A DNA stretch of 64,000 bases from contig NZ_CP117866.1 of assembly GCF_028736035.1 (NCBI RefSeq), positions 6,448,001 to 6,512,000 on the forward strand. Reading direction: 5' to 3'. Below are positions 11,958-50,445 of this stretch, one piece after another. The stretch comes from Streptomyces sp. T12. GTDB taxonomy: Bacteria > Actinomycetota > Actinomycetes > Streptomycetales > Streptomycetaceae. Each line of letters starts with the position of its first letter. Within the stretch, counting starts at the first letter, position 1. A model generated the notes under the pieces. It saw nothing but the letters and a program-made list of their open reading frames with translations, had not been told where the DNA came from and ran no database searches. A program made the position numbers and the translations under genes.

Positions 11958-12947
11958 CTACAGCTTGCGCAGGCTCAGGCGCTGGACCTTGTGGTCCGGG
12001 CCCTTGCGGACGACGAGGGCGGCGCGGCCTCGGGTGGGGGCGATGTTCTCCACGAGGTTGGGTTTGTTGATGGTGCGCCACATCGTGCGGGCGTAGTCGA
12101 GGGCCTCCTCCTCGGACACCTGGGTGTACTTGCGGAAGTACGAGGAGGGGTTCTGGAAGGCGGTCTCGCGCAGGCGCTTGAAGCGGTTGAGGTACCAGTG
12201 CTCGATGTCCTCGGTGCGGGCGTCGACGTACACGCTGAAGTCGAAGTAGTCCGCGAGGCCGACCCGGGTGCGGCCGTCCTTGCCGGGGAGGGCGGGCTGC
12301 AGGACGTTCAGGCCCTCGACGATCAGGATGTCGGGGCGGCGGACCGTGAGCTTCTGGTCCGGGACGATGTCGTAGATCAGGTGGGAGTAGACGGGGGCCG
12401 TGACCTCGTCCTTGCCCGCCTTGATGTCGGCGACGAAGCGGGTCAGGGCGCGGCGGTCGAACGACTCGGGGAAACCCTTGCGCGACATCAGGCCACGGGC
12501 CTGAAGCTCCTTGGTGGGGAGCAGGAAGCCGTCCGTCGTGACCAGCTCGACGCGCGGGTGCTCGGGCCAGCGGGAGAGCAGGGCCTGCAGGAGGCGGGCG
12601 ACCGTGGACTTTCCTACGGCGACCGAACCGGCGACTCCTATGACGAACGGGGTGCCGGACTGGGAGCCCTGTTCGCCGAGGAAGGTGTTCAGGGCGCCGC
12701 GCAGGCCGTCGGTGGCGCCTACGTAGAGGTTGAGGAGGCGGGAGAGCGGGAGGTAGATGTCGCGGACCTCGTCGAGGTCGATGACGTCGCCGAGGCCGCG
12801 CAGCTTCTCGACCTCTTCCGCGGTGAGCGGCAGCGGGGTCTTGTCGCGCAGCGCGCTCCACTCGGCGCGGGTGAGGTCGACGTAAGGAGTCGCCTCCGGC
12901 CGCTGCCGGTGGGCGCTCCGGGGCATCGAGGAGACCGGAGAGATCAC
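11958..12947 (-). CDS. coaA: type I pantothenate kinase
   Basis: This 329-residue enzyme performs the first, rate-setting step of coenzyme A synthesis, phosphorylating pantothenate in the cytoplasm. The P-loop [12 protein letters not shown] is near residue 105, followed by [18 protein letters not shown] and [11 protein letters not shown], all canonical for bacterial CoaA (PanK-I). The start is GTG 12947; the downstream ATG 12926 is an alternative. The 180-bp gap to the divergent ABC transporter must hold both promoters. Confidence 0.95.
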
Positions 12948-38437: not shown

Positions 38438-39487
38438 GTGACTGGGCGAGACGAGAACGGGGACGACGGCAGACGAAGGGGCCGGCGGTCGAGAGCGCTG
38501 AAGACCGTCGGCCTCCTCCTCGCGGGCGCCCTGGTGCTGGGCGTGGGGGCCGCCGGCTGGGCCTTCTGGCACCTGAACGCCAACATCAAGAGCGTCGACA
38601 TCAACAACGCGCTCGGCGACGACCGCCCCGCGAAGGCGGTCACCCCACCGTCGCCGTCGGCCTCCGCGTCCCCCCTGCCCACGGGGTCCCTGAACATCCT
38701 GGTCCTGGGCTCGGACTCGCGCAGCGGCGAGGAGAACCAGGAACTCGGCGGGGGCAGCAGCACCGGAGCCCGCTCGGACACCGCGATGGTGGTGCACATC
38801 GACGGGGGCCGTACGAAGGCGACGGTCGTCAGCATCCCGCGCGACACCCTGGTCACGCGTCCGTCCTGCCCGCTGTCATCGGGGGGTTCGACGGAGGTGG
38901 CGTACCAGACCATGTTCAACAGCGCGTACGCGATCGGCGGCCCCGTATGCGCGGTCAAGACGGTCGAGTCGATCACCGGCGTCCGCATGGACCACTTCAT
39001 CGAGATCGACTTCTCGGGCTTCGCGAAGCTGGTGGACGCGCTGGGCGGCGTGACGGTCACGACGGACGAGGACATCGACGACCAGGACAGCCACCTGACG
39101 TTGGAAGCGGGCACCCACCACCTCGACGGCAAGACGGCCCTCGCCCTGGCGCGCACCCGACACGGCCTGGGCGACGGCAGCGACCTCGGCCGCATAGGCC
39201 TGCAGCAGAAGCTGGTGAAGGCGCTGCTGGAGCAGATCTCCTCGACCGACCTCCTCACCGACCCCACCAAGCTCTACAAGGTCGCCGGCGCGGTGACGGG
39301 CAGCCTGACGACCGACACCGGCCTGGACTCCCTGAGCGAGCTGATGTCCCTCGGCGAGAGCCTGAAGGGCTTGTCGGCGGGCGAGGTGAAGACGGTGACG
39401 ATGCCGGTGGTCACGGCGGCATCGGACGCGAACCGGGTGGTGGCGGACGAGCCGGAGGCGAGCGAGCTGTGGGAGTCGTTGCAGTAG
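38438..39487 (+). CDS. LytR-CpsA-Psr (LCP) family glycopolymer ligase
   Basis: This is a 349-residue protein. A short basic leader (RRRGRRSRALKTVG) and one membrane helix (about 25-45) precede a Ser/Pro linker and the LCP domain: LNILVLGSDSRSG, SDTAMVVHIDGGRTKATVVSIPRDTLV, MDHFIEIDFSGFAKLVDALGGV and ALALARTRHGLGDGSDLGRIGLQQ. The Asp/Arg residues bind the polyprenyl pyrophosphate of the glycan donor. LCP enzymes attach wall teichoic acid-like polymers or capsule to peptidoglycan. The start is GTG 38438. Cys pairs may form at SCPLS and VCAVKT. Confidence 0.9.
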   Translation: MTGRDENGDDGRRRGRRSRALKTVGLLLAGALVLGVGAAGWAFWHLNANIKSVDINNALGDDRPAKAVTPPSPSASASPLPTGSLNILVLGSDSRSGEENQELGGGSSTGARSDTAMVVHIDGGRTKATVVSIPRDTLVTRPSCPLSSGGSTEVAYQTMFNSAYAIGGPVCAVKTVESITGVRMDHFIEIDFSGFAKLVDALGGVTVTTDEDIDDQDSHLTLEAGTHHLDGKTALALARTRHGLGDGSDLGRIGLQQKLVKALLEQISSTDLLTDPTKLYKVAGAVTGSLTTDTGLDSLSELMSLGESLKGLSAGEVKTVTMPVVTAASDANRVVADEPEASELWESLQ

Positions 39488-39570
39488 GAGTGCACGGGTT
39501 GCCGGGGCTGCCGGGGGCCCCGTGCGCCCGAGATGACTCCGTGCGCTCACAGTGAGCCCTCCTTCCTCGC

Positions 39571-42500
39571 GTGAGCGGAGGGACGCGGAGAGTTGCGTAC
39601 GCCCATAATCGAGCTGTGCTTCGGGGGCCGTTGATACGGGCGCGTGCGCGTCGGCGCCTCCTCCGCCACGCCCTCTTCGCCGGCGTCGGAGCGGGGTCGA
39701 CCGGTCTCGCCGGGTGGATGGTGGTGGGCGGGAAGGCCGATCACCTGGCCACGGTGGCAGGGTTCTTCGTGGGCATCGCCTCGCTGCTGCTGGCCCTCGC
39801 GGACTTCTTCCGCCAGGAGCCGGCGGCGCCCGATCCGGTGGAGTACGCGGACGACCTCGCCAGGACGCTCAGGGCGCAGTGGCTGGACGAAGCGGAGGCC
39901 AGGCGACTGCGCGACCCCCGGGTACTGCCGCTCGCCTGGACGACGACGGACCGGGAGGTCGCCGACGAGCTGGGCACGGGTGCCCCCGGGCCGACGGGCG
40001 GCCGGGTGGTGCGGGTCCGTCTCGACGGCCGCCTCGCCGGGCGATTCGAGCACGTCACCGCCCAACTCGCCGAAGGATACGGCCAGTTGGCGCAGGGCAG
40101 ACTGGTCGTCATCGGTGAGCCCGGAGCGGGCAAGACCGTGCTCGCGATGCTGCTGACGCTGGGCCTCCTGCAAGCCCGCGCGCCTGGCACACCCGTCCCC
40201 GTGCTGCTCCCGGTCTCCTCCTGGGACCCCCTGCGGGAGCGCCTGGACGACTGGATCGTGCGCTCCCTCGCCGTCCCGTACTACAGCGGCCGTCAGGAGA
40301 TCCCGCGCACCCTCCTGGCCCACGGCCTGCTGCTCCCCGTACTCGACGGGCTCGACGAGATCCCCGAGTCCGCGCGGCGCGGCGCGATCCGTGGCATCAA
40401 CCACGCCATCGGCGGTGAGCGGCCCGTCGTCGTCACCTGCCGCGCCGTGGAATACGAGGAACTCATCCGCGGCGGCGCTCCCAGGCTGCGCCGGGCGCCG
40501 GTGGTGGAAGTACTGCCGGTACCGCCCGCGGACGTCATCTCGTATCTGCGGGACACACAGTGGCCGGAAGGGGTGGTGTGGGACGGGGTTTTCGCCCGCC
40601 TGCACGCCGAGCCGGACGGCCCGCTGGCGGAGGCTCTGGCCACACCGCTGATGGTGACGACGGCCCGCCTCGTGTACCAGCGTGGTGGCACGGACGGCGG
40701 GGATCCGGCTGAGCTCCTCGACCGAGGCCGGTTCGACTGCCGGTACGCGGTCGAGGACCACCTCACCCACCAGGTGGTGGACGCGGCGTACGCCCCGGAC
40801 CCGAGGCTGCCCGAGGGTGCGGCGGTACGGCGGCGCTGGCGACCCGAACAGGCGCGGCGCTGGCTGACCTTCCTCGCCGGCTATCTCCATGACCACCGGG
40901 AACGTGATCTGGCCTGGTGGATGATGGGTGGGCGGCTCCTGCCGACCTGGGTCGGACCGGTCACCGGTCTCCTGCTGGGGCTCGTACTCGCCTTCGGGGC
41001 CTCGGTGTGGGTCGCCGCGACGGAGGGGTTCGACGGTTCCCAGGCGTTCAGTGACGTGGCCGGCCTGACACTGGCGGTCGGCGCGGGCTTCGCGCTGTTC
41101 GGTTCCATCGTCTGGTACATGGTGGGAGATCCGCTGCCCGGGCGCCTGTCCTGGTCGCTGCGCGGCTCGGCGGGGCGGCTGCGACGAGGGTTCCGCAACG
41201 GTGTCGTGCTGTGCCTGGCCTTCATCGGCCCGGTGGCCACGGCCATCACCCTCGTCACCATCCTCGGTACCACGCTGGGGCCGGGGACACTGCAGAGCGC
41301 CGAGGCGGTCGCCATATTGGTCATGGTCTGCCTCGCACTGAGTGTCGTCATGGGGCTCTCTCTCGCCGCGCACAACTGGCTGAACGCGCCGCCGTCCAGG
41401 GCCACCCAGGTGAGCCCCGCGAAATCCCTGGCGCAGGACCGGCGTTCGGCGCTGGCCGGAGCGCTGGTGGCCGGCCTGGTCATGGGCGCGACGGCGCTGC
41501 CCGGGTTTCAAGTGGGGCTGCTCGGCGGCGGCCTGGTGTTCCGCTGGGTCAACGGCTGGCCGGGCTGGCCGAGAGACGGTGAGGCCCAGGAATTCGCCGC
41601 GGCCGACTGGCGGCGGTCGGGTCAGCAGTACGCCCTGGAGACGTTCGGCTTCGGTGTGCCGTACCTGTTGCCCGCGACGCTCTTCGCCCTCCTCGTCCTG
41701 CTGTCCCGCGCATGGCCCCGCTTCCTCCTGACCCGGATCTGGCTCGCGGCCAGCGGCAGGCTGCCATGGCGGCTGATGGCCTTCCTCGCGGACGCCCGGC
41801 GCCGGGAGATCCTCCGGCAGTCGGGCGGCGCCTACCAGTTCCGCCACATCCGCCTCCAGGAGGCACTCGCGGGCCGACCGACGTACGAGGAACCCCGGCC
41901 GACGTCGCCACGTCGGCCGGAGCCGGCGGTCGTACGGCGTCGCGTGGTGCTGGCGGCGGGGGCGGCGGCCGCGGTTGCCGGGACGGGGGCGGTGGTCCGG
42001 CATCACCGGGACGAGAGCGTGGTGACGTTTTCGGGGCCTGCGGAGGCCTATGTGGCCGCGGTGGTGTTCCGGCCGAGGACGAGCGAGGTGTTCTGGGGGG
42101 ACTTGGACGGCAGCGTCTGGTGGGGCAGCCGGCTCGGGGGACAGCACTTGCTGCTCGAACCGCCGCCCCCGGTTCGGGACAGCGACGAGTACTTCATGGA
42201 CCAGGGCAGCGAATCCATGGCCTTCCATCCAGTCGGCGGATTCCTCGCCGTCAGGAGCCCGAAGGGGCTGCGGGTCTGGGACGTGCGAGGACGATCACCG
42301 CGGCTGTCGCACGCCGAGGCCTTGGTCTACTCGCCCTTTTCTCTCGTGTTCAGCCGGAACGGGGACTACCTTGCCGGTCCCGTTTTCCGCGACGAGGACG
42401 ACTCCGAGGTCAGGTTCTTCCTGAGACGCGTCGACGCCGAAGGCCGGCTTGAGCGGACCGAGCACCGGAAGGACTGGGAACGGATGCCGGCCCGAGCCGC

Positions 42501-42996
42501 CGCCTTCCTCTCCGGGGGCGACTTGGCCGTCCTCGACTGGGAACGCGTCAGGGGGCACCCGGTTCCAGGATTCTCGGAGGCCCGGAACCTCTTCCAACCT
42601 GCTGGGAAGGGGCTCGAAAACACGGACGCCGCCATGATCGCCAACCTTCAGGGTGACTGCCTGCTGGTGTGGAGTGAGCGGGGCGGCGAGCTGCGGCGGC
42701 TCGGAGCCGAGGGACGGTGGGCGCCCCTCGCGATGTTCCCCGGCATGCACAGCGCCGCGCTCCATCCGACGGCATCCGTGCTCGCCTACGGTCCGCTGGT
42801 GGAGGACACCCTCAGTGCGGGGGCCGACGGGACGGTCGAGCTGTGGTCGATCTCGGCGAGACCGGCGCGACTGAAAACCCTCCACGGACACATGGCCGCG
42901 GTCACCTCCATGGACTTCAGCTCGGACGGCCGCTGGTTGGCCACCGGCAGTGCTGACGGGACCGTTCGCGTGTGGGATGTCAGTGACCTGTCGTGA
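39571..42996 (+). CDS. membrane-embedded NACHT NTPase with C-terminal beta-propeller
   Basis: The protein has 1141 residues from GTG 39571, or 1126 from GTG 39616 (MLRGPLIRARARRR), where a CATAAT at 39604-39609 would give a leaderless start. Two N-terminal helices lead to a NACHT NTPase: Walker A IGEPGAGKTVLAMLL (G182) and Walker B PVLDGLDEIP (D259), then CRAVEYEEL and a winged-helix-like region. About six helices follow (residues about 470-720), a short FRHIRLQEALAG segment, one more helix (RRRVVLAAGAAAAVAGTGAVV), and WD40-like repeats to the end (LATGSADGTVRVWDVS). Bacterial NACHT proteins include phage-defence and signalling STAND NTPases. Its function here is inferred only. Confidence 0.75.
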   Translation: MSGGTRRVAYAHNRAVLRGPLIRARARRRLLRHALFAGVGAGSTGLAGWMVVGGKADHLATVAGFFVGIASLLLALADFFRQEPAAPDPVEYADDLARTLRAQWLDEAEARRLRDPRVLPLAWTTTDREVADELGTGAPGPTGGRVVRVRLDGRLAGRFEHVTAQLAEGYGQLAQGRLVVIGEPGAGKTVLAMLLTLGLLQARAPGTPVPVLLPVSSWDPLRERLDDWIVRSLAVPYYSGRQEIPRTLLAHGLLLPVLDGLDEIPESARRGAIRGINHAIGGERPVVVTCRAVEYEELIRGGAPRLRRAPVVEVLPVPPADVISYLRDTQWPEGVVWDGVFARLHAEPDGPLAEALATPLMVTTARLVYQRGGTDGGDPAELLDRGRFDCRYAVEDHLTHQVVDAAYAPDPRLPEGAAVRRRWRPEQARRWLTFLAGYLHDHRERDLAWWMMGGRLLPTWVGPVTGLLLGLVLAFGASVWVAATEGFDGSQAFSDVAGLTLAVGAGFALFGSIVWYMVGDPLPGRLSWSLRGSAGRLRRGFRNGVVLCLAFIGPVATAITLVTILGTTLGPGTLQSAEAVAILVMVCLALSVVMGLSLAAHNWLNAPPSRATQVSPAKSLAQDRRSALAGALVAGLVMGATALPGFQVGLLGGGLVFRWVNGWPGWPRDGEAQEFAAADWRRSGQQYALETFGFGVPYLLPATLFALLVLLSRAWPRFLLTRIWLAASGRLPWRLMAFLADARRREILRQSGGAYQFRHIRLQEALAGRPTYEEPRPTSPRRPEPAVVRRRVVLAAGAAAAVAGTGAVVRHHRDESVVTFSGPAEAYVAAVVFRPRTSEVFWGDLDGSVWWGSRLGGQHLLLEPPPPVRDSDEYFMDQGSESMAFHPVGGFLAVRSPKGLRVWDVRGRSPRLSHAEALVYSPFSLVFSRNGDYLAGPVFRDEDDSEVRFFLRRVDAEGRLERTEHRKDWERMPARAAAFLSGGDLAVLDWERVRGHPVPGFSEARNLFQPAGKGLENTDAAMIANLQGDCLLVWSERGGELRRLGAEGRWAPLAMFPGMHSAALHPTASVLAYGPLVEDTLSAGADGTVELWSISARPARLKTLHGHMAAVTSMDFSSDGRWLATGSADGTVRVWDVSDLS

Positions 42997-47160: not shown

Positions 47161-50100
47161 GTGCTGAGTGCGGTCGTCGCGGCGGGCTCCGGCACGCCGA
47201 TCATCAACACGCCGGTCGTCACCGCGGGCGGGGCGGTCATTGCCGCGCTGGTGGCGGGCGCATTCGCGATCTGGCAGACACGCCGTAACAGGAGGCTGGA
47301 GCGGGAGAAGATCGAGCTCCAGGAGGCCGCCAACAGGCGGTTGAAGGAGCACGAGTGGGAGCGCGAGGACCGCGCACGCGCCCAGGAGGAGGAACAGGAA
47401 CAGGCCCGGGCCGCCGACCAGTCGGCCGCTCGCCGCAGCAGCCTCGTCACCGAGGCGGACACCTACTGCGCGCGGCTCGCGCAGGAGCTGTCGACGTTGA
47501 AGATCCTGGACATGTCCCGGCCGCTGCGCCTGGACCGTCTCTACGTCCAGGTCCGGGTCCAGGAGCAGCAGCCCCTCAGGTTCGTGCGTGAGGAGGAACT
47601 CGGCGAGCGGGACCGCAATCGTGCGGGCGACGGCACGCGCAGGGAATCCCTGGCCACCGACACGGCCACCTCGTCGTCCCACACCTACGCCCCGATCGAC
47701 GCACTCCAGCGCTACCAGCGCATCGTCGTCGTCGGTGACCCGGGCGCCGGCAAGACGACGATGCTCCGCCACCTGGCCCTGCGCATGGCCAGCCAGTCGG
47801 AGGGCGAGGCGCTCCCCGAACTCCCCGCGTACATCGAGCTGTTCCGCTTCGTCGAGAGCGGCCACGACTCGCTGCTCGACTACGTCGCCGAGCACTGGGC
47901 CGACCAGTACGGCTTCGCGGACGCCAGGGAGTACGTGGCGGAGAAACTGGCCGACGGCACCGCGGCCCTGCTGCTCGACGGCCTGGACGAGGTCCTGGGC
48001 GGGGAGAGCGCGGAGGACGCGGCCGGGGCGTACGGCCGCGTCACCGACGAGATCGCCCGCCTTGCGACCCGCTTCCCGAGGGCACTGATCGCCACCACCT
48101 GCCGTCGGCACGGCTGGCAGGGCGGACTGCAGCAGTTCCAGGTCCTGGAGGCGCTGGACTTCGAGTGGGCGCAGATCGAGACCTTCATCGCCAACTGGTT
48201 CGGGGAGCGCGACCGGCGTCGCAGCGGCCTGGTCCGCGCCCTGTCCGGCAACGGCCGCCTCCAGACGCTGGCCGCCAACCCCCTGCTGCTGAGCCTGATC
48301 GCCATCGTCTACGAGCGTGACCTGGAGCTTCCCGAGCGGCGGGCGGCACTCTACCGGCGCTGCGTCGAGGTCCTGCTCCGCGAGTGGGACGCGCACCGCA
48401 AGGTCACCCGCTACAGCCGCTTCACGACTGACCGCAAACAGGACCTGCTCAAGCAGATCGCCTGGCACTACCACCAGCGTGGCCGGCGCTACTTCCCCGA
48501 GGACGATCTGCTGGGCCTGATCGGGGACTTCCTGCCGACCATCGACCTGCCCCGCACGGACAGCCGGGCGATCCTCGACGAGATCGCCGCCCAGTACGGC
48601 CTGCTCAAGGCGCAGGCCCACGGCTGGTACGGCTTCCTGCACCTGACCCTGCAGGAGCACTTCGCGGCCACAGCGCTGCTGGAGCAGGGGGCGGCCGGGA
48701 TCGAGCGGGCGGTGGCGTCACGGTACGACCCGTGGTGGGAGGAGGTGATCCTGTTGCTGGCCGGGGCGTTGCCGGACGCGACGCCGTTGTTGTCGGGGGT
48801 GCTGCAGCCGGAGGGGCGCGAGGCGGACGCCGAACTGCTGCACCTGCCGCACGACGATCTGTTCCACACCGATCTGCTGCTGGCGGCGAGGTGTCTGACG
48901 GGCAGCCCGCGGGTGGCCGATGTGGCACTGCGACGGCAGATCGTCCGGACCGTGTGGCAACTGCTGGAGTCGTCGCCGTACGAGGAGGAGCGGTTGCGGG
49001 CGGCCCAGGCGATCGTGGGAGTGCTGGGCTCGGAGCAGCAGTTGAGCGAGGTCGTCGGCTACATCGGCGACGACCAGAAGGGGCCGGACGTGCGAGCGGC
49101 ACTCGTCGACGCGCTGGCGGGGCACGGCGGCCGGAAGGTGGGGGAGCGGCTGCTGGGGGTGTTCACCTTGCAGCCGGCCCTGTCGGGCCGCGTGCGGGGG
49201 CACCTCATCAAGGCCCTCGGCACACTGCACGTGGAGGCCGCCGTTCCCGTACTGCTCCAGGAGTTGACGGACCTCATGGCCGGTCCGAATCCGACCGGCT
49301 CCGAAGAGATCGAGCACGTCTGCACGCTCGTCCGCGCACTCGGCGCCGCGGGAGGGCCCGCCGACGTCCTCCTCCGGGCGGTCGTCGAGAAGTTCGGCGG
49401 ATGGCAGGCCCGACAGGCGGTACGCGACTCCCTCCCTGACGTCGGGGACTCCGACACGGAGGAGCGGTTGCTGGAGCTCCTGACACGGGACGACGACTGG
49501 TACTTCGAACGCCAGACCCTGGCCGAGGTCTATCTGGACATCGCCGGTGACCGAGGGGCAGGGGCGCTGCTCGACCTGATCCGGTCGGACCAGGTGACGG
49601 AGTTCCAGAAGATGCCGATGATGGCCGCGCTCGTGGTGTTCGCCGGTCAGGGGCACGGCTGGGCGCACCGTGACGCTCTGCTCGCGGTCGCCGGTGACAC
49701 TGCCGCGGCATGGCAGCTGCGCTGGCTGGCCTTGGAATGCCTCGACCACAGCCCGGGCTCCACCGCGGAGCTGCAAGCGCTCCTCGACAGCCCGGACCCG
49801 CACATCTGTGCGGCGGCCGCGGCCACCTCGGCGGCCTGGGGCACACCGCTCCGGCTCCACACCGTCCGTCGTGCGATCCTGAGCGGCGCCTTCTCCCCGG
49901 ACCTGGACTACGAGCGCGGCCGGTCGCATTCCTGGGCCTGGAGAGGCCGGATCTCCCGCCGTCTCGGCACGACGCTGTCCCCCTATGGAGACTTCGGTGT
50001 CGTACAGCACTTCTTCGACCGGGCCGCCACGGGCCGCGGGGGATTCCATGACGGGCACGCTGCGTACTGGCTGGAGGCCTTCGCTCCAGAAGCCGCGATG

Positions 50101-50445
50101 GATGCCTGTCTTCTCCGGCTGAGAGAGGATACTCAGGCCCTCGAAGGGTCGTTTCCTCCCAAGGTTCCACGCTCGCGCGCGCATGCCGTCCTGCGCTACG
50201 GCCTGGACAATCTGGAGGCCGGCTCCCCAGTGGCCGCGGACACCTACGAGGCACTCCTGAGGTCAGTGGCCGGGGTCGCGGACGACGCCGAGACCGTCGC
50301 CGGGCTGCTGCGGTTCATCGATCCGGCGCTGGAGCCGCCGTTCCCCCACGACGCGGCCCACTCCGCCGCCTACGCCGTCAGCCGCCGCGCCAGAGTCCGA
50401 GTCCTCCCCGACCACACGATCGTCCCGCTCCCCTCGGCCGGCTAG
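47161..50445 (+). CDS. membrane-anchored NACHT NTPase with HEAT-like C-terminus
   Basis: The protein has 1094 residues from GTG 47161. One N-terminal helix (VVTAGGAVIAALVAGAFAIW) is followed by a long charged coiled coil (about 43-95). A linker with RLDRLYVQVRVQEQQP leads to the NACHT domain: Walker A VVVGDPGAGKTTML (G192), Walker B ALLLDGLDEV (D273), then TTCRRHGWQGG, and a winged-helix-like part ending FLHLTLQEHFAATALL. From about 600 to 1000 the sequence is repeated helical pairs of HEAT type (LRGHLIKALGTLHVEAAVPVLLQEL). The layout resembles bacterial NACHT proteins with phage-defence roles, where the C-terminus senses a ligand. No separate effector domain is visible. Confidence 0.78.
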   Translation: MLSAVVAAGSGTPIINTPVVTAGGAVIAALVAGAFAIWQTRRNRRLEREKIELQEAANRRLKEHEWEREDRARAQEEEQEQARAADQSAARRSSLVTEADTYCARLAQELSTLKILDMSRPLRLDRLYVQVRVQEQQPLRFVREEELGERDRNRAGDGTRRESLATDTATSSSHTYAPIDALQRYQRIVVVGDPGAGKTTMLRHLALRMASQSEGEALPELPAYIELFRFVESGHDSLLDYVAEHWADQYGFADAREYVAEKLADGTAALLLDGLDEVLGGESAEDAAGAYGRVTDEIARLATRFPRALIATTCRRHGWQGGLQQFQVLEALDFEWAQIETFIANWFGERDRRRSGLVRALSGNGRLQTLAANPLLLSLIAIVYERDLELPERRAALYRRCVEVLLREWDAHRKVTRYSRFTTDRKQDLLKQIAWHYHQRGRRYFPEDDLLGLIGDFLPTIDLPRTDSRAILDEIAAQYGLLKAQAHGWYGFLHLTLQEHFAATALLEQGAAGIERAVASRYDPWWEEVILLLAGALPDATPLLSGVLQPEGREADAELLHLPHDDLFHTDLLLAARCLTGSPRVADVALRRQIVRTVWQLLESSPYEEERLRAAQAIVGVLGSEQQLSEVVGYIGDDQKGPDVRAALVDALAGHGGRKVGERLLGVFTLQPALSGRVRGHLIKALGTLHVEAAVPVLLQELTDLMAGPNPTGSEEIEHVCTLVRALGAAGGPADVLLRAVVEKFGGWQARQAVRDSLPDVGDSDTEERLLELLTRDDDWYFERQTLAEVYLDIAGDRGAGALLDLIRSDQVTEFQKMPMMAALVVFAGQGHGWAHRDALLAVAGDTAAAWQLRWLALECLDHSPGSTAELQALLDSPDPHICAAAAATSAAWGTPLRLHTVRRAILSGAFSPDLDYERGRSHSWAWRGRISRRLGTTLSPYGDFGVVQHFFDRAATGRGGFHDGHAAYWLEAFAPEAAMDACLLRLREDTQALEGSFPPKVPRSRAHAVLRYGLDNLEAGSPVAADTYEALLRSVAGVADDAETVAGLLRFIDPALEPPFPHDAAHSAAYAVSRRARVRVLPDHTIVPLPSAG

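Follow-up and report, generated by a model that had tools for sequence, protein, structure and literature searches.

The gene considered here occupies positions 39571-42996 on the forward strand of a 64,000-nucleotide stretch of Streptomyces sp. T12 DNA (hereafter the window, meaning that whole stretch). Its reading frame is intact, and its product combines a NACHT nucleoside triphosphatase (NTPase), nine predicted transmembrane helices (TM1 to TM9) and a C-terminal WD40 propeller. We lean towards viewing this protein as a membrane-embedded STAND (NLR-like) receptor which signals from the outside in, with the propeller as an exchangeable sensor on the outer face. The parts, the topology, the integrity of the motifs, the replacement of the ectodomain in relatives and the fast divergence of the propeller are supported by computation. 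We infer that the ectodomain senses, that TM9 transmits, that the NACHT domain oligomerises and that the membrane helices, either the six-helix bundle or the N-terminal hairpin, act as effector. Sensing of an external ligand by the propeller is a reasonable, inferred, role.

Domain architecture and predicted topology

The features of the gene are as follows, where dG denotes the predicted energy of membrane insertion.

39571..42996, + strand: membrane NACHT-WD40 gene, 1141 residues, GTG start; alternative starts possible up to about residue 21
39658..39726, + strand: TM1, residues 30-52, in to out; marginal, dG 1.47 (topology script)
39742..39810, + strand: TM2, residues 58-80, out to in (topology script)
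40087..40560, + strand: NACHT NTPase domain, residues about 173-330; Pfam PF05729 at 178-328 and structure model
40114..40137, + strand: Walker A GEPGAGKT, residues 182-189, from sequence; G182, P184, G185, G187 and K188 invariant in 86 sequences
40333..40362, + strand: Walker B LPVLDGLDEI, residues 255-264; D259, L261, D262 and E263 invariant in 86 sequences
40948..41016, + strand: TM3, residues 460-482, in to out (topology script)
41056..41124, + strand: TM4, residues 496-518, out to in (topology script)
41203..41271, + strand: TM5, residues 545-567, in to out (topology script)
41305..41367, + strand: TM6, residues 579-599, out to in (topology script)
41446..41508, + strand: TM7, residues 626-646, in to out; within long helix 616-660 of the structure model
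41662..41730, + strand: TM8, residues 698-720, out to in; the model shows a break at 711-714
41839..41862, + strand: FRHIRLQE, residues 757-764; F757, H759, R761 and Q763 invariant in 86 sequences
41932..42000, + strand: TM9, residues 788-810, in to out; low hydrophobicity (dG +0.36), the Arg triplet included at one edge
41935..41943, + strand: Arg789-791, putative internal twin-arginine (Tat) signal; R790 in 84/86 and R791 in 80/86 homologues
42010..42990, + strand: 7-bladed WD40 propeller, residues 814-1140; Pfam, structure model and structure searches; predicted outside

Membership of the NACHT and STAND families follows from the Pfam NACHT score (29.3 bits against a curated cut-off of 26.7) and from the presence of both Walker motifs. 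Walker A, Walker B, the sensor-type residues and FRHxxLQE are invariant in homologues. The last of these, FRHIRLQE at residues 757-764, we take to be the C-terminal motif of STAND and NACHT proteins, and it would be expected in the cytoplasm. The propeller consists of seven four-stranded blades, and its nearest solved fold in a structure search is the WD40 domain of the kinase PkwA; propeller matches filled the list returned for the full model. An additional short helix (672-686) is modelled between TM7 and TM8, and no effector domain occurs among the Pfam matches listed (25 of 32). An earlier sequence-only reading of this gene had proposed two N-terminal helices, a NACHT domain, about six helices, a single helix and a WD40 region, an order confirmed here.

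Topology was predicted with a script of our own, which combines Hessa-type insertion energies with the positive-inside rule. All 18 settings (energy cut-offs from 1.5 to 2.5, each combined with three charge weights and two lengths of flank) returned nine helices with the N-terminus inside and the C-terminus outside: a pair before the NACHT region, six after it, and lastly TM9. With a cut-off of 1.0 the P-loop helix was called and TM1 lost, while cut-offs of 3.0 and 4.0 gave 13 and 15 helices, respectively; TM9 ran from inside to outside at each of these. The sequence-only reading had held that its topology would be overturned if the helices ahead of the propeller were even in number; the number obtained is nine.

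Homologues share this arrangement. An alignment was made of 86 proteins, picked by hand from 121; the 5 of the 121 which lack the FxHxxxQE pattern were excluded from TM9 counts. A single in-to-out helix is found at the position of TM9 in 85/86 of the aligned sequences, preceded by exactly two plus six helices in 65/86, and 81/86 have 6 or 8 helices between the NACHT domain and the FRHxxLQE-type motif. Among the 86, sequences with an excess of Lys and Arg before the helix outnumber those with an excess after it at TM1, 3, 5, 7 and 9, and the converse holds at TM2, 4 and 8; TM6, where the balance is near even, is the exception to this alternation. Basic residues are commoner on the N-terminal side of TM9 in 76/86 homologues, and in more distant relatives TM9 is more hydrophobic (median dG -0.5, n=35).

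Ectodomain exchange and the position of the propeller

Full-length relatives are numerous in actinobacteria, and in a protein search that scored 7987 candidates, 557 reached E<=0.001 (120 of them listed). To compare what follows the NTPase core, 118 loci were assembled from 80 genome loci and from whole-genome searches, and strict patterns (P-loop and FxHxxxQExL) gave 63 frames. Removal of L004, in which the window's gene is cut short, left 62 cores, L009 being the window's own gene. After FxHxxxQExL, 33 of these cores (this gene included) carry a propeller, 9 carry another, cysteine-bearing domain, 18 are bare (5-25 residues) and 2 are unclassified. With this gene left aside, 41/43 long tails begin with a helix. 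None is found in the 18 short tails, of which 15 are too short for one.

The nine alternative ectodomains share three invariant cysteines, and their model (pTM, the predicted TM-score, 0.83) loosely resembles periplasmic-binding proteins (PBPs): 25 PDB entries matched it at E<=0.001, the best at 6e-5, nearly all with titles that name type-I periplasmic-binding or related receptor domains. The label PBP-like was assigned by a profile derived from these very 9 sequences. By profile there was no PDB match, nor was there a Pfam match in the region; the piece alone found nothing in the protein database, and the region searched within the whole protein found 3 near relatives.

The core itself differs with the tail it bears. 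Six helices between NACHT and motif are predicted in 33/33 propeller, 8/9 PBP-like and 11/18 bare cores, and the first helix after NACHT is called in-to-out in 33/33, 8/9 and just 10/18, respectively. The N-terminal hairpin is present in 32/33 propeller, 9/9 PBP-like and 5/18 bare cores, an association with ectodomains which fits the hairpin being needed for signalling. In a quick core tree, for which the SH-aLRT (Shimodaira-Hasegawa-like approximate likelihood-ratio test) is the sole support, 43 cores (all propeller cores, all PBP-like cores and L091) fall on one side of a branch with support 94, and the four tail labels require 4 changes as against 25.6 in shuffles.

We consider a position outside the cell likely, and the placement of NTPase inside and propeller outside, first put forward in the sequence-only reading, is computationally well supported because of the helix count, the charge alternation, the helix opening 41/43 long tails and the replacement of the propeller by a PBP-like domain in relatives. 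Some observations pull the other way: the helix and hairpin counts of the bare cores and the TM-scores of the PDB matches to the alternative-ectodomain model slightly lower the odds of an outside propeller, and the hydrophobicity of TM9 is marginal (dG +0.36). The same marginal value would suit a protein of eight helices in which TM9 is uninserted or lies on the membrane and the propeller stays in the cytoplasm, as an inside sensor or as an inhibitory lid like that of Apaf-1. WD40 propellers are often cytosolic. Apaf-1, itself cytosolic, has the same order of an NTPase switch (NB-ARC) followed by a WD40 propeller, and Foldseek and VIA-align list it across NTPase and propeller, at a root-mean-square deviation >33 A and with the parts placed differently; the present protein departs from it in having six helices inside the NTPase module and another, TM9, ahead of the propeller. 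We find a cytoplasmic propeller distinctly unlikely, given the TM9-type helix in 85/86 homologues and at the start of 41/43 long tails, the more hydrophobic TM9 of more distant relatives (that median dG of -0.5, n=35), the N-terminal flank of TM9 richer in basic residues in 76/86, and the occupation of the propeller's slot in relatives by a domain with three invariant cysteines and a PBP-like model.

The two exceptions among the long tails are of separate kinds. In L050, a propeller member, the tail (about 12122-12376) lacks TM9 and contains an odd stretch, DLSVYKRQ, which looks like an assembly fault and not a true variant. L100 is a core whose 210-residue tail lacks TM9 and belongs to neither the propeller nor the PBP-like type. 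Elsewhere, profile matches in L119, L120 and L121 place a relative of the alternative ectodomain after what, by eye, is a hydrophobic stretch; the two which were scanned (L120 and L121) have no Pfam family above cut-off, and these domains may possibly represent an unlabelled actinobacterial ectodomain family.

Fast change is concentrated in the propeller. Over 85 homologues, identity to the query averages 0.76 in NACHT, 0.44 in the bundle and 0.27 in the propeller; among the six nearest homologues it is 0.92-0.96 in NACHT and 0.44-0.78 in the propeller. This gradient is pertinent to a reversed flow of action, from the inside out, in which ATP turnover by NACHT would power movement or remodelling of something by the bundle, with the propeller serving as an outside docking part. 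Insertion of the bundle between the NACHT module and FRHxxLQE, such that motion of the NTPase would act on it directly, speaks for such a machine. We nonetheless deem it highly improbable: the propeller is the least conserved domain measured (0.27 against 0.76), and its replacement by a PBP-like fold fits sensing better than docking.

In the outside-in receptor that we favour, the NACHT NTPase and FRHxxLQE would lie in the cytoplasm, the two-helix hairpin and six-helix bundle in the membrane, and TM9 would carry the propeller out. There the propeller would meet a ligand, a surface protein or a change in the envelope, and TM9 would relay this event to the FRHxxLQE segment, which lies in the cytoplasm immediately before that helix. 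Release of the NACHT switch would entail exchange of ADP for ATP and oligomerisation, which would in turn rearrange the membrane bundle. Since neither a separate effector domain nor a partner gene turned up, the bundle (or the hairpin) is the likely output, perhaps as a pore or an ion leak. NLR-type STAND switches are regarded as inside sensors. If the sensor here is outside, STAND switches would serve as genuine transmembrane receptors too, in parallel to receptor kinases, and the family would offer a testable case for the coupling of a STAND ATPase to a membrane bundle.

A putative Tat signal at TM9

The Arg triplet before TM9 admits an elaboration of the receptor reading, which we advance only tentatively: the propeller may fold in the cytoplasm and then be exported by the twin-arginine (Tat) system, TM9 and its twin arginine forming an internal signal after eight helices inserted by Sec. 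The precedent for such assembly is the actinobacterial Rieske protein, of a class shown to be Sec-Tat assembled; twin Arg, a weak last helix and basic residues after it are features named by Tooke et al. 2017 (PMC5449189). Several of these are found here. Eight helices, an even number, precede the twin Arg (R789-791), which stands directly before the last helix; that helix has a dG of +0.36 by the topology script and is followed by R810 and R813. R790 (84/86) and R791 (80/86) are retained within an otherwise loose linker. By the same script, the last helix of the own genome's three-helix Rieske protein has a dG of +0.07, and the last helix of the S. coelicolor Rieske protein is given as +0.61 in the table of that paper (PMC5449189). 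The actinobacterial Rieske proteins QcrA/Sco2149 and other dual Sec-Tat proteins share with this family an even helix number, twin Arg, a weak last helix and an outside globular domain; they differ in carrying cofactors, whereas the ectodomain here is a WD40 propeller, unlike those of the published set, and Tat dependence is putative. In PMC5449189, the published screen was searched by hand for cofactor domains, and a WD40 protein would therefore have escaped it.

For comparison, anchor helices were taken from Ser/Thr kinases of the same genome. Thirty of 55 matches were fetched, giving 26 rows with a helix, 25 of them distinct (L133 and L135 share the same helix; L141 has no motif; L126, L138 and L140 have no helix). 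The median dG of TM9 in 116 homologues is +0.15 as against -1.91 for the kinase anchors, RRxhh occurs in 73/116 TM9 as against 7/26, and basic residues after the helix number 2.1 (n=116) as against 1.2; the p values of this comparison ignore kinship, and the control is biased to strong helices, each having been selected as the best of a longer stretch and retained solely at dG<1.5. A plain RR, moreover, is also frequent in kinase anchors (18/26, against 112/116 TM9).

Further observations temper the proposal. An Arg pair also precedes TM7 (DRR, with R624 invariant), and a WD40 propeller needs no cofactor. Within the family, the RR motif is not linked to low TM9 hydrophobicity (p 0.40) and is linked weakly to basic residues (p 0.07). 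The general Tat model TIGR01409 matched 2/42 of a TM9 set (40 of 42 locus segments, together with the segment from the window and the full protein) and 2/24 control TM7 segments (24 of 25), and as it thereby fails to separate the two we treat Tat dependence of propeller export as a hypothesis, with the larger share of our expectation against it. The same scan of the TM9 set returned an anti-sigma model in 9/42 and the CU044_5270 model in 21/42, matches that look like reflections of ordinary single-anchor regions, and PF10399, the Rieske Tat signal, matched 6/42 weakly (best E 0.0046).

A more general proposition, which we hold to be rather doubtful in its entirety, is that there are actinobacterial cell-surface NLRs: multi-spanning NACHT receptors with interchangeable ectodomains (propeller or PBP fold), whose propeller branch is delivered by Tat after Sec has inserted eight helices. 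If it held, these would be cofactor-free signalling receptors built by both Sec and Tat, a kind that we did not encounter in the literature searched, and a signalling family could join the few proteins proposed to need both systems.

Related systems, phage defence and the genomic setting

Other proteins pair comparable parts in different ways. In bacteria, Ser/Thr kinases occur in fusion with WD40, ANF-receptor or solute-binding domains (PMC1262709), a similar combination of a switch enzyme with a propeller or PBP-like domain; they possess a kinase in place of NACHT, and the kinase anchors of the own genome are more hydrophobic than TM9. The STAND sensors of Thiohalocapsa that are diversified by diversity-generating retroelements likewise join NACHT to a diversified C-terminal sensor, and one target is predicted to be periplasmic; its NACHT and C-type lectin domains are predicted on the same side, both periplasmic, while here the sensor is a propeller and the two are predicted on opposite sides (PMC10907252). 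The sequence-only reading had called the topology unusual. A multi-spanning NACHT protein with an inside NTPase and an outside sensor did not appear in the literature searched on NACHT and STAND proteins, a search with most subscription papers outside its reach and covering portions of PMC7159879, PMC8195603, PMC12169576, PMC10907252, PMC5587647 and PMC9218822, among others. Two of these, the conflict-system surveys PMC7159879 and PMC8195603, treat STAND proteins, propellers and membrane systems, and this topology was not met with in the parts consulted. The protein is nonetheless less isolated than that reading implied, given its many full-length actinobacterial relatives and the other multi-helix NACHT proteins of its own genome.

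The bNACHT antiphage proteins (e.g. bNACHT25) also have a central NACHT STAND NTPase and a C-terminal variable region, and bacterial NACHT proteins have been shown to be antiphage (PMC12169576). The NACHT-WD40 protein may work in a like manner, its outside propeller recognising phage at the surface and triggering an abortive membrane leak, and sensing of phage had been raised in the sequence-only reading. Its patchy presence (7/150 genomes of the genus at E<=1e-100, its own included) and its fast-changing propeller would suit such a role. We regard defence against phage as unlikely all the same. No antiphage family model fits: NCBIfam gave no match, and the sole PADLOC match, weak and confined to the WD40 part, was to HEAT-ARM_XIII (E 0.0032). 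None of six window neighbours tested (GH3, GH10-CBM2, LCP, TetR, YCII and a sigma factor) is a defence gene, and the site is kept in 5/7 loci. In PMC12169576, the trigger of bNACHT proteins is a phage coat protein produced within the cell, and these proteins possess an N-terminal effector (a DNase in bNACHT25), then NACHT, then a C-terminal sensor, as opposed to a multi-spanning protein with no effector domain found and a sensor predicted outside. The suggestion of phage sensing thus found no support here.

Gene order was compared at 7 of 55 loci with gene calls from our own heuristic. In five of these (L066, L064, L044, L042 and L043) the gene lies among relatives of the window's neighbours, and in L039 and L040 it is located elsewhere. 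At the five shared sites the neighbours are 60.7-97.8% identical and the NACHT-WD40 protein 47.9-71.4%, the lowest value in each locus. The gene is, then, patchy, fast-changing and often found at one conserved chromosomal site. A partner gene is not evident: a non-core family occurs in at most 12/56 loci, and nothing was seen beyond shared synteny.

Immediately upstream on the same strand, an LCP (LytR-CpsA-Psr) cell-wall gene (window 38438-39571) ends 83 bases before the NACHT gene. It is placed likewise in L066; as the order is different in L042 and L044, the pair is not a fixed operon. About 4 kb downstream, a second NACHT protein (window 47161-50445, + strand) comprises an N-terminal hydrophobic helix, a charged stretch, a NACHT domain (48.3 bits) and HEAT repeats. 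It matches the antiphage protein EruA weakly (51.9 bits against a cut-off of 1000) and has no blastp match in the 55 other loci.

Two further NACHT proteins are encoded in the same genome. One (L007, G000:C1:6790036-6793563) is a 755-residue frame in which 2+6 helices are predicted and no further domain follows. The other is a paralogue of 1434 residues (L165, 325-4626, near 5494024 on G000:C1) in which NACHT is followed by six predicted helices, then by four more and a second P-loop NTPase (AAA_22 match) with two helices after its P-loop; the whole is predicted to comprise two NTPases in one membrane protein.

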